Source: an uncultured bacterium (GTDB lineage: Bacteria > Cyanobacteriota > Vampirovibrionia > Gastranaerophilales > Gastranaerophilaceae). Taken from it: a stretch of 64,000 nt of DNA. Shown here one piece after another: positions 1,741-60,800 of this stretch. The position numbers were made by a program, and so were the translations under genes. The DNA is taken from NCBI GenBank assembly GCA_949300515.1, contig CASGEP010000014.1, positions 1 through 64,000 on the forward strand, read 5' to 3'. The notes under the pieces were generated by a model that made no database searches, had not been told where the DNA came from, and saw nothing but the letters and a program-made list of their open reading frames with translations. How positions within the stretch are numbered: the first letter of the stretch is position 1; each line of letters opens with the position of its first letter.

Positions 1741-2766
1741 TTATGCGAACGTCTTAAATGTAGATTCGACGTTGTTTTGGATAATTTCCTGGACTGCGTC
1801 CATTTCGGTTTTAAGAGCTTCTTGCTCTGTATCAAGCTGTTTCAGTCTTAATTCAAGAGTTCTGTCTTGTTGCTGGATAATTTCTGTTCTTGCGTTAATA
1901 TCCTGAATAGCTCTTTCGTATATCATTTTTTGATATTCGTAGTCCTTCATGGCTTGTTCATAGCCTTCGGTGTCATCGACCTGAGTAAGGTCAAGGTCAA
2001 ATGTTTTTCCCGTGAGTTTTTCGCTCAACTCATCATTGCTGACACCTGTAATTTGAACAGATTCAAACCTTCCGTCGGATGTAGCCTGAAAAGTTGCCGT
2101 TGCATTGGATTTTTTCTTAACCGTTGCATCCATGGCAAAGTACTGGGTCAAACCTCCCGTATACATTTCAGAGGGATCTTCCGGAAGCTGTGCCCTTTCA
2201 ATATCATAAGAAGATATATAATAAGTTCTTTCATCAGTTTCGCCCTCATTGATTGTGTATTTGTAATAAGTGTCTTCTTCGGGGTTTCTTAAAGAATCGT
2301 TAGCTCTTATTGCAGAGTTGATTACTTCGATATTGCCCTTATCAATACCTGTAGTATCCGCGGGAGTTATTTCGTACTCCTGACCGTCCAGGTATATTTT
2401 AGTAGGCACTTGATCTTCAAACTCCATCGGGGTGCCTTGAGTAATGGGAACCGATGAATAACCGTTGCGCTCAAGTGTAGAATACTCAAGAACAATGTTA
2501 TATGTACCGTTTGTGCTGCCTGCTGCAGTATCAAACTTGGTTATGGAATAATCCTCGCCCATAGAGTCAAATACATAGCGGGTATTATAATAGTCTGTAG
2601 CACTCGGAGGCGTCGGGACCTGAAGCTCTAACATCTGATTAAACAGACCCGCACTTTCGTTAGAAAGCACCGTTCTTTGTTGGTTAACCTGCTGCCCTTC
2701 ATATTCAACATTTGTTTTCCTTGCCGTAAGACCTAAAAATCTTGCCTGGCTTGCTGCCATTCCCAT
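1741..2766 (-). CDS. Axial-protein-like protein under sigma-28 control, unknown family
   Basis: A 341-residue protein with a short N-terminal helix rich in Ala, Gln, Arg and Asn (about residues 3-50), a large beta-rich, Asp/Thr/Tyr-rich central domain (about 55-255) and a long C-terminal coiled coil (about 265-335) ending in Phe-Lys-Thr-Phe-Ala. It has no signal peptide. This order, helix, variable middle, helix, without a Sec signal, is that of flagellin, hook-associated and type III needle-type proteins, though I see no sequence match to them. The start ATG at 2766 is preceded by GGAGG, and a near-consensus sigma-28 promoter ends 34 bases upstream. The N-terminal motif looks like a family I recall from gut Melainabacteria, with no known function. 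Flagellar export is inferred. Confidence 0.8.
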   Translation of the reverse strand: MGMAASQARFLGLTARKTNVEYEGQQVNQQRTVLSNESAGLFNQMLELQVPTPPSATDYYNTRYVFDSMGEDYSITKFDTAAGSTNGTYNIVLEYSTLERNGYSSVPITQGTPMEFEDQVPTKIYLDGQEYEITPADTTGIDKGNIEVINSAIRANDSLRNPEEDTYYKYTINEGETDERTYYISSYDIERAQLPEDPSEMYTGGLTQYFAMDATVKKKSNATATFQATSDGRFESVQITGVSNDELSEKLTGKTFDLDLTQVDDTEGYEQAMKDYEYQKMIYERAIQDINARTEIIQQQDRTLELRLKQLDTEQEALKTEMDAVQEIIQNNVESTFKTFA

Positions 2767-2800
2767 AGCTTTCTATGCCTCCATTGTTCTTACATTATCC

Positions 2801-2828
2801 ATATCGGCAATATTATTTTTCAACTTTA
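2801..2828 (-). promoter_or_regulatory. Sigma-28 (FliA) promoter
   Basis: On the minus strand TAAAGTTG (2828-2821) and GCCGATAT (2808-2801) match the sigma-28/sigma-D consensus, whose -10 in Bacillus is GCCGATAT. The gap between TAAA and the -10 is 16 bases. Transcription should begin near 2795 and give a leader of about 28 bases with a GGAGG ribosome site for the 341-residue gene. Confidence 0.75.
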
Positions 2829-19682: not shown

Positions 19683-20336
19683 ATGAATGAGTATATTCAA
19701 AATATAAAAGAAGCAAAGAAAATTGAGATAGTAGTCAGAGAGCTGTCCTGCACAACGAGATTTCAGTGCAGCTTCATCAAAAAGCAGGATGACTCCCTGA
19801 TTTTTACAAAACCTCTTTGCGGCAGTCGCGAGTTCGACTACCCCAAGGGGCAGCCTCTTGAGATTTATGTTTACACGCCAAACGGAGTTTTCAGGCTAAA
19901 GTGCCGGCTTTTAGAGTGTATGAGCGAAACATGTGCCGTATCGACACCTTTTGAAACAAATAAAATTCAAAGACGGGAATTTATAAGAGTGAAGCTGAAA
20001 GTTAAAACCATAGTAACCATTGAAACTCCGACCTTTTCAAAAAAAATTACAACCGGCACAAAAGACATAAGTGCAAAAGGCATGAAGATTTTATTGGACG
20101 AGGATATCTCCAAATACACAAACAAAATCGAACTTTCAATTTTATTCCCGGAAAATATAATAAAAACTCTCGCCCGTATCATAAAAGTAATCCCCACAAA
20201 AACGCAAGACGGGCTGCGCTTTGTAACTTCTCTTATGTTTATTACAATAAGCGGAAAAGATATGGATTTTATTGTAAAAAAATGCTTTGAATTTCAAGCT
20301 GCACAGAGAAGAAAAATGCTTGATGAGAAAAATTAA
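19683..20336 (+). CDS. PilZ-domain protein, cyclic-di-GMP receptor
   Basis: A 217-residue YcgR-like protein. Residues about 5-90 form a beta-rich N-terminal domain and about 95-210 the PilZ domain. The cyclic-di-GMP motifs are intact: R98-x-x-x-R102 (RREFIR) and D128-I-S-A-K-G133. YcgR-type proteins slow flagellar rotation when cyclic-di-GMP is high, so with FliA and FliS in this window that role is plausible. An extended -10 (TGG-TATAAT) ends about ten bases before the ATG and no ribosome site is seen, suggesting a leaderless mRNA. The secreted-protein gene follows 11 bases later. Confidence 0.85.
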   Translation: MNEYIQNIKEAKKIEIVVRELSCTTRFQCSFIKKQDDSLIFTKPLCGSREFDYPKGQPLEIYVYTPNGVFRLKCRLLECMSETCAVSTPFETNKIQRREFIRVKLKVKTIVTIETPTFSKKITTGTKDISAKGMKILLDEDISKYTNKIELSILFPENIIKTLARIIKVIPTKTQDGLRFVTSLMFITISGKDMDFIVKKCFEFQAAQRRKMLDEKN

Positions 20337-23851: not shown

Positions 23852-24679
23852 ATGGATCATCAGAATATAGAGGTCGATTCGTATCGGAAAATAGTGAGGT
23901 TGTCTGACGAAGATTTAAAAAATCTTTGGGATGAATATTACAGTGACCGCAGCAATAAAATTGTCCGCGATAAACTTATCGTGCAGTACATCTACCTTAC
24001 AAGATATGTAATAGGCAGGGTAAAGGTCAACCTGCCGCCGAGCTTCTCATATGAAGATATAGCAAGCTACGGAGTAGAGGGACTTATTGATGCCATTGAA
24101 AAATTTTCTCCCTCAAAAGGGGCAAAGTTTGAAACATACGCCCTTATGCGCATAAGAGGCGCAATTATAGACAGGATAAGGTCATCAGACTGGCTCCCCA
24201 GGACAATAAGAAAAAAAATAAAAGACGTAAAACTGACCGCGGAAAAACTAAAACAAGAACTCGGAAGGGCGGCAACAAGCAAAGAAATAGCAGACGTTAT
24301 GGGTATAGAAAAGGAAAAAGTGGACGAAATTTTAGCCTCCGATACATCTGTTGACTCGATATATGATAAAAAAGGTATCGGCGAAGAAAGTGTTGAAATT
24401 ATCGATACAATAGAGGACAAAAACGGCGCCCGTCCCGAAGAAGAAATAGAAAAGAAAGATGCAAAACGCGAACTTGAAGCGGCTCTTAAAAAACTCCCCG
24501 ACCGCGAAAGAATGCTTTTGATTTTGTATTACCACGAAAATATGACACTTAAAGAAATCGGCGAGGCGATTAATGTGTCGGAATCCCGTGTCTGCCAGCT
24601 CCATGCACAGGCAATTATGAAGCTTAGAAATATCCTCAGTGCAAAAAGAAGCGAAAGACTGAACAGGTCAATCGTGTAG
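23852..24679 (+). CDS. fliA: RNA polymerase sigma factor FliA (sigma-28 / WhiG family)
   Basis: A 275-residue sigma-70-family factor of the flagellar class. Region 2 contains LWDEYY, then DLIVQYIYLTRYV, SYEDIASYGVEGLIDAIEKFSP and KFETYALMRIRGAIIDRIRSSDWLPR, which is the FliA/WhiG signature; region 3 follows near residue 125, and region 4 (about 210-265) ends in a helix-turn-helix (LKEIGEAINVSESRVCQLHAQA). It should direct late flagellar genes, and three matching promoters are seen in this window. It stands alone, with no flhA, flhF or motor genes adjacent and no flgM identified. Confidence 0.95.
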   Translation: MDHQNIEVDSYRKIVRLSDEDLKNLWDEYYSDRSNKIVRDKLIVQYIYLTRYVIGRVKVNLPPSFSYEDIASYGVEGLIDAIEKFSPSKGAKFETYALMRIRGAIIDRIRSSDWLPRTIRKKIKDVKLTAEKLKQELGRAATSKEIADVMGIEKEKVDEILASDTSVDSIYDKKGIGEESVEIIDTIEDKNGARPEEEIEKKDAKRELEAALKKLPDRERMLLILYYHENMTLKEIGEAINVSESRVCQLHAQAIMKLRNILSAKRSERLNRSIV

Positions 24680-60588: not shown

Positions 60589-60616
60589 TAAAGCCGGCGG
60601 CTCATTTTGCCGATAT
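60589..60616 (+). promoter_or_regulatory. Sigma-28 (FliA) promoter
   Basis: TAAAG (60589-60593) and GCCGATAT (60609-60616) match the consensus, with 16 bases between TAAA and the -10, as at 2801 and 43520. The -10 is identical to that of the 341-residue gene. The transcript should start near 60623, about 22 bases before ATG 60645. Confidence 0.7.
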
Positions 60617-60644: not shown

Positions 60645-60800
60645 ATGTTTAAAAAAAGCAAAAAACCGCTGACCAACTCGCTCGAGTGTGTAGATCTTAT
60701 GTTAAAAGGGGCAAAAAAGCGGCGCAGACTAGCCGCATGCGCCATAAATTCAATGAACAGCCAGCTTGGCATTGCACCCGAGATTACAATTATCAAATAG
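60645..60800 (+). CDS. Small 51-residue basic protein under sigma-28 control
   Basis: A 51-codon gene, MFKKSKKPL at the start, a central Lys/Arg cluster (KKRRR) and a hydrophobic end (PEITIIK). No family recognised. Two upstream ATGs stop after a few codons, which leaves ATG 60645; an AGGATATGG stretch lies about 10-15 bases before it. It ends directly before the convergent FtsB-like gene with no gap. A near-consensus sigma-28 promoter sits 29 bases upstream of the start, so it is probably expressed with late flagellar genes. Confidence 0.6.
   Translation: MFKKSKKPLTNSLECVDLMLKGAKKRRRLAACAINSMNSQLGIAPEITIIK

Follow-up and report, generated by a model that had tools for sequence, protein, structure and literature searches.

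A two-ended protein family with sigma-28-type promoters and a second, flagellum-derived export apparatus in the Gastranaerophilales

We analyzed the first 64,000 nucleotides (nt) of a 73-kb contig (CASGEP010000014.1), which we call the window, from the 1.72-Mb draft genome (G000) of an uncultured member of the Gastranaerophilales. Near its start, the window encodes a protein of 341 amino acids (aa) that belongs to a four-gene cassette and is preceded by a promoter of the sigma-28 type (Table 1). We consider it probable, though well short of settled, that the 341-aa protein is one of a family of FliA-controlled proteins that are exported by a second type III apparatus, one that derives from the flagellum but is not flagellar and that occurs in the Gastranaerophilales and in related orders. 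A preliminary description of the gene had instead proposed a protein that is exported by the flagellum, perhaps a filament component in a lineage with few recognized flagellins. All of the genomes that we compared (G numbers) are metagenome-assembled genomes (MAGs).

The 341-aa protein and its relatives

None of the four cassette proteins matched a family in Pfam, NCBIfam, or PHROGs, which agrees with the earlier statement that the 341-aa protein is uncharacterized. In particular, the 341-aa protein has no match to Flagellin_N (PF00669) or to the Flg_bb_rod motif (PF00460), and a sequence search of the PDB with the family profile found no match up to an E value of 10. A hydropathy scan of the 341-aa protein found neither a signal peptide nor a transmembrane segment. 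Two paralogues elsewhere in the same genome align with it only at the ends (roughly 45 N-terminal and 55 C-terminal residues). The AlphaFold model, built from 42 aligned sequences, has a helix at residues 2–47, a beta-rich region at residues 60–264, and another helix at residues 266–340 (mean predicted local distance difference test score, or pLDDT, of 83; predicted template modeling score, or pTM, of 0.47). So, the model, the alignment, and the hydropathy scan bear out the helical ends, the variable middle, and the lack of a signal peptide that had been described before.

We will refer to proteins with these ends as the two-ended family. Among 133 family open reading frames (ORFs) in the loci that we fetched, the lengths range from 107 to 712 aa, and the N-terminal end is always accompanied by the C-terminal end (133/133). 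There are up to about 20 divergent paralogues. We found no enzyme domains in 25 long members of the family, and one long member contains GLUG repeats. For a full-length paralogue of the 341-aa protein, the closest named relatives are from Candidatus Gastranaerophilales MAGs (71% identity), which places the organism among the non-photosynthetic relatives of cyanobacteria that live in the gut.

A comparison of the model to known structures with Foldseek gave a flagellin filament as the top match in the PDB (9n59, E = 2.6e-4, probability 0.82), and several more chains from filaments and hook-filament junctions were among the high-ranking matches. Because the TM-score of the top match is 0.18, we take this result to support a similar layout, not common descent. 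The earlier suggestion of an axial-like build is in keeping with the paired end helices of the model and, weakly, with the flagellin filament as the best fold match.

In the cassette, the 107-aa protein joins the two-ended family by profile comparison (94–96% probability). For the C-terminus of the 273-aa protein, the same comparison gave 12–22%. In about ten genera, the gene for the 273-aa partner comes after a gene of the 341-aa type. We did not use the structure model of the 273-aa protein (pLDDT of 36), and so a translocator-like role for it remains a guess.

Table 1. Features of the window that are discussed in the text.
Feature	Position	Strand	Remarks
Two-ended family protein, 341 aa	1741..2766	-	ATG at 2766; ORF confirmed
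Conserved N-terminal helix, codons for residues 2-47 (MGMAASQARFLGLTARKTNVEYEGQQ...)	2626..2763	-	Alignment and structure model
Variable, beta-rich middle, codons for residues 60-264	1975..2589	-	Alignment and structure model
Conserved C-terminal helix, codons for residues 266-340 (...NNVESTFKTF)	1747..1971	-	Alignment and structure model
Sigma-28-like promoter, TAAAG-N15-GCCGATAT	2801..2828	-	34 nt before the ATG of the 341-aa ORF
Cassette partner, 273 aa	848..1669	-	Helical ends (MVSYKN..LTIANKYGSAS; NADVILSDRVKNIETVCKMLDTQ); middle Gly/Ala-rich and moderately hydrophobic
Basic cassette partner, 89 aa	389..658	-	Net charge +16; kept together with the cassette
Minimal family member, 107 aa	64..387	-	N- and C-terminal end helices; middle absent
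FliA (sigma-28)	23852..24679	+	TIGR02479 match at C14 23975-24637, 239.6 bits, above cut-off

The sigma-28-type promoter

The promoter stretch upstream of the 341-aa ORF reads CTAAAGTTGAAAAATAATATTGCCGATATGG (minus strand), and as the preliminary description had noted, it holds TAAAG and GCCGATAT, with the -10 box 34 nt from the ATG. The spacing had been described as right. The site is real and conserved, but the gap is 15 nt (N15), and the sigma-28 consensus of Escherichia coli and Bacillus subtilis has N14, which is one base shorter. Allowing gaps of N14 to N16, we counted 6 exact TAAAG/GCCGATAT matches over the whole genome (1.72 Mb), as compared to 0 for a reversed control. Orthologues in seven other genomes of the genus (G001, G002, G003, G007, G008, G009, and G013) have an N15 site at the same distance from the start codon, and among the orthologues of the genus the spacers themselves have drifted (for example, TTGCAATCCCAAGGT in G002 and TTTTATTCTAAATGT in G007). 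Given the genome-wide count, the conserved gap and distance with diverged spacers, and the enrichment across the family that is described below, the site is not due to chance.

Sites that score at least 11 of 12 lie within 200 nt upstream of 49/116 family genes, 6/884 other ORFs, and 6/2,320 shuffled sequences; as the family genes are related, and hence are not independent, the difference between 49/116 and 6/884 should be read loosely. (To avoid circularity, these statistics left out the loci that were fetched by the promoter pattern.) The gap is N15 in 43 of these 49 sites, and the consensus across 69 family genes is [CT]TAAAGTTT-N12-GCCGATAA. A stronger argument comes from varying the length of the spacer. 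In genomes that lack flagellar FlhA, TAAAG-N15-NYCG is found within 200 nt upstream of 26/35 family genes and of 0/142 other ORFs, and the other spacer lengths from 10 to 20 give just 0–2 each, so that N15 alone is enriched. The N15 site precedes most members of the family, including in genomes without flagella.

As a control for the motif, we considered the flagellins of the order (20 upstream regions, L279–L298). A minority of them have a site that scores at least 10, and these sites are mostly N14. As most flagellins do not have the N15 site, the N15 promoter class is tied to the two-ended family and not to the flagellins, and the N14 and N15 sites could represent two promoter classes.

The 341-aa gene is very probably controlled by FliA, as was first proposed: it has -35 and -10 elements with a conserved N15 spacing, such sites are enriched across its family, and FliA is encoded in the same genome and within the window. 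Sigma-70 regions 2, 3, and 4 were all detected in this FliA.

A protein with a PilZ domain and a YcgR-type N-terminal domain is encoded about 3.5 kb upstream of fliA (19683–20333, plus strand) and is a possible control point for cyclic di-GMP. Another TAAAG-N15-GCCGATAT site in the window (60589–60615, plus strand) lies 29 nt before a 51-aa ORF (60645–60800, MFKKSKKPLTNSLECVDLMLKG...), which is a candidate for a further FliA target, of unassigned kind. Beyond the family, strong sigma-28-type sites precede a few ORFs, which encode proteins of 183 aa (L008:791–1342, MGLTIGGLSSNNVFSKA...), 275 aa, 609 aa (LysM-like), and 110 aa. Judging from these sites, they may be further substrates of the flagellum or of the second export system.

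A second, flagellum-derived export set

Searches with FHIPEP identified two types of full-length FlhA, the flagellar type with scores of around 880 bits and a second type, FlhA2, with scores of around 720 bits. We will use the name "FlhA2 system" for the second, flagellum-derived export set. This set is complete in the window's genome, where contig C15 encodes SLT-FliE-FliF-(FliG position)-FliH-FlhA2 and contig C27 encodes FliR-FliQ-FliP-FliO-FliN and an FlhA-C protein. The flagellar operon FliP-FliQ-FliR-FlhB-FlhA lies apart from it on contig C6. While the flagellar FlhA (859.5 bits), FliP, and FlhB of this genome pass the NCBIfam cut-offs, FlhA2, FliF2, FliQ2, FliR2, and FliN2 fall under the cut-offs of both the flagellar and the injectisome equivalogs. 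(FliP2 is just above the cut-off for FliP.) For example, FlhA2 misses the cut-off for SctV (598.6 bits versus 692.25) and the cut-off for FlhA (688.5 bits versus 772.1). In a maximum-likelihood tree, FlhA2 forms its own clade, with support of 100/100, outside of both flagellar FlhA and SctV.

The second FliF keeps its C-terminal domain. The FliG-like gene between fliF and fliH did not match any FliG model in Pfam or NCBIfam. In three genomes (G026, G032, and G039), the operon also includes two FlgF/G-like, one FlgB-like, and one FlgC-like rod genes; these were named from their motif and gene order, and PF00460 matches that remain in genomes without flagella back up the assignment. A 450-aa FliI-like ORF, which we named by its position and the appearance of its sequence only, follows flhA2 in G026 and G032. 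The contig with the second FliOPQR also carries a gene for a soluble 483-aa protein that has the cytoplasmic domain of FlhA (FHIPEP 321–656) and not the membrane part (L022:9306–10757, on G000:C27). Most relatives also encode such a protein.

Four genera without flagella (G020, G021, G024, and G027) link the cassette to this system. Their cassettes comprise the four genes known from the window, in the order family protein, 271–273-aa protein, 90-aa protein, and minimal member of 108–111 aa, and lie at most about 5 kb upstream of fliE-fliF-fliG-fliH-flhA2.

The two-ended family is present in all 57 genomes of the order that we searched, and the only relative in this comparison that lacks it, G057, also lacks all FHIPEP. 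In 14 of the 57, neither flagellin nor flagellar FlhA was found, and all 14 keep FlhA2, FliA (above the cut-off), and the two-ended family. The second export set that they retain is FliE-FliF-FliG-like-FliH-FlhA2, together with FliOPQR, rods, and FliI where these were seen. The median number of family matches is 17 in genomes without flagella versus 9 in the others, with the window's genus collapsed; these counts are rough because some matches are to pieces of genes. Export by the flagellum, as first proposed, is not supported by these data, nor is a filament component in a flagellin-poor lineage, as the window's genome has ordinary flagellins (5 matches to Flagellin_N). The preliminary description had named occurrence in many genomes without flagella or fliA as evidence that would count against it: the family does occur in 14 genomes without flagella, but all of them have retained fliA.

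In a sample of the class, the family was found in 211/235 FHIPEP-positive and 0/54 FHIPEP-negative genomes. Every family-positive outgroup genome that we examined has FlhA2, including G116, for which we did not find flagellar FlhA. When further orders are added, the tree of FlhA2 has two branches, and the two-ended family is confined to one of them; the other consists of the bacterial families f10, f11, and f12. FliA is above the cut-off in 25/25 genomes with FlhA2 versus 0/4 in the FHIPEP-negative bacterial family f8. We rejected the idea that the retention of FliA tracks the two-ended family, as it tracks FlhA2 instead.

What the two-ended proteins may do

One explanation for a sigma-28 site and axial-like ends, in line with the preliminary description, is that the 341-aa protein belongs to the ordinary flagellum, as a minor component of its filament, cap, or junction, and that flagellar FlhA exports it under FliA control. 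The window's genome does encode flagellins along with flagellar export proteins that score above the cut-offs. However, genomes without flagellin or flagellar FlhA all have the two-ended family, and in greater numbers, the cassette adjoins flhA2 and not flhA1, and most flagellins of the order lack the N15 site. This explanation is largely refuted and we consider it very improbable. It is also rather improbable, if a little less so, that the FlhA2 system serves for motility as a true second organelle, with a filament of two-ended proteins instead of flagellin. The system does have rods, FliE, FliF, a FliG-like gene, FliN, and FliI, its putative substrates combine FliA control with axial architecture, and the copy number of the family goes up where flagellin was lost. 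But a rotor is doubtful given that the FliG-like protein matches no FliG family in Pfam or NCBIfam, and so many divergent paralogues of such varied length seem ill-suited to forming one polymer.

Another possibility is that the family members are free effectors or adhesins, which the FlhA2 system exports and which act on host or neighboring cells, and that their ends are only signals for export or for chaperones. The many divergent paralogues with free middles, the GLUG repeats in one member, and the gut habitat would fit. This seems unlikely because of the lack of enzyme domains in the long members, because one member has no middle at all, and because an N-terminal signal would not require that both ends be kept together in every case. 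Since export is an inference and the N-terminal helix differs from a classical signal, the family could also consist of coiled-coil proteins that stay in the cytoplasm and have no more than FliA control in common with the export system. We give this the least credence, as their beta-rich variable middles are typical of exposed proteins, the cassette is linked to an export operon, and the family co-occurs with FlhA2 branch by branch.

Several observations also weigh against our preferred explanation, that the FlhA2 system exports the two-ended proteins under FliA control. In the window's genome, the cassette and flhA2 are unlinked, and the four genera that do link them are related, so that one inherited event may account for all four. 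We could not recognize a sigma-28 site before the flhA2-linked copies in G020, G021, and G027. Besides the low TM-score of the match to flagellin, profile comparisons (hhalign) with flagellin, rods, and FliE found no homology for the family, the 107-aa protein, or the 273-aa protein (for the family, 0.1% probability against seven flagellins of the order and below 1% against the rods of the second system). Two family-positive genomes (G137 and G241) have no full-length FlhA match, perhaps because of assembly gaps. Finally, f10–f12 carry FlhA2 and FliA and not the two-ended family, and so the family is not a core part of the FlhA2 system.

If the FlhA2 system does export these proteins, then FliA would transcribe the 341-aa gene when the FlhA2 base is ready, and the FlhA2 machine would recognize the unprocessed N-terminal end and export the unfolded protein. 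Once beyond the inner membrane, the protein would pair its two end helices, as in the D0 domain of axial proteins, and the members would pack against the rod or against one another so as to polymerize or to form a cap, with their variable beta-rich middles displayed. The family members are probably axial or surface subunits: the 107-aa member, which has no middle, would be a stalk subunit in its simplest form, and decorated or tip subunits would come from the 341-aa protein and its paralogues. We suggest more tentatively, and with some doubt, that this is a third type III organelle besides the flagellum and the injectisome. It would be a FliA-controlled, rod-based secretion or filament device with FlhA2 at its core and with an extracellular part of two-ended proteins that have no sequence relationship to flagellin or needle proteins, and it would outlast the loss of the flagellum. 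A second export machine with likely surface substrates would give abundant and hardly cultured gut bacteria a means of contacting their hosts or neighbors, would change motility calls from such genomes, and would leave the origin of secretion systems from the flagellum with an extra branch to account for.

Our searches of the open-access literature on type III and other secretion in these taxa turned up no account of the FlhA2 set or of the two-ended family. The closest analogues of the family are FliC, FlgK, and FlgL, which also have paired terminal helices, a variable middle, no signal peptide, and sigma-28-type control, and filament and junction proteins are the best, though weak, fold matches of the 341-aa model. 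In contrast to these proteins, the two-ended family has no Flagellin_N match or profile similarity, is present without flagella, and has many paralogues of 107–712 aa. The cassette is also reminiscent of how injectisomes combine a needle, a tip, and translocators (SctF, SctA, and SctE/SctB), in that it combines a small helical hairpin (107 aa), a protein of about 340 aa with terminal helices, and a partner with a hydrophobic stretch. However, we found no sequence similarity and the middle of the 341-aa protein is beta-rich. We view this analogy as a lead only.

As for the apparatus, non-flagellar type III secretion systems derive from the flagellum, including a type from Myxococcales that lacks a secretin (Abby and Rocha, 2012, PMC3459982). 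Like the FlhA2 system, they keep the flagellar export core for translocating proteins without motility. Unlike them, FlhA2 lies in its own clade and below the cut-off for SctV, and the FlhA2 set keeps FliE, the C-terminal domain of FliF, rods, and FliA. Flagellar gene sets in the Gastranaerophilales have been reported to be complete in some genomes and degenerate in others (Soo et al., 2014, PMC4040986; Utami et al., 2018, PMC5877343), and the incomplete sets probably include the FlhA2 set. Those reports concern the same organisms and interpreted the partial sets as the remnants of lost flagella. According to our data, many of the genes that were taken for flagellar remains in non-motile gut melainabacteria (PMC4040986) make up an additional, conserved machine for export that has an FlhA lineage and a sigma factor link of its own, as well as likely surface substrates that evolve fast. 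In contrast to a remnant, the FlhA2 set is a second and conserved set that is inherited separately, with an FlhA clade, FliA, and a substrate family to go with it.
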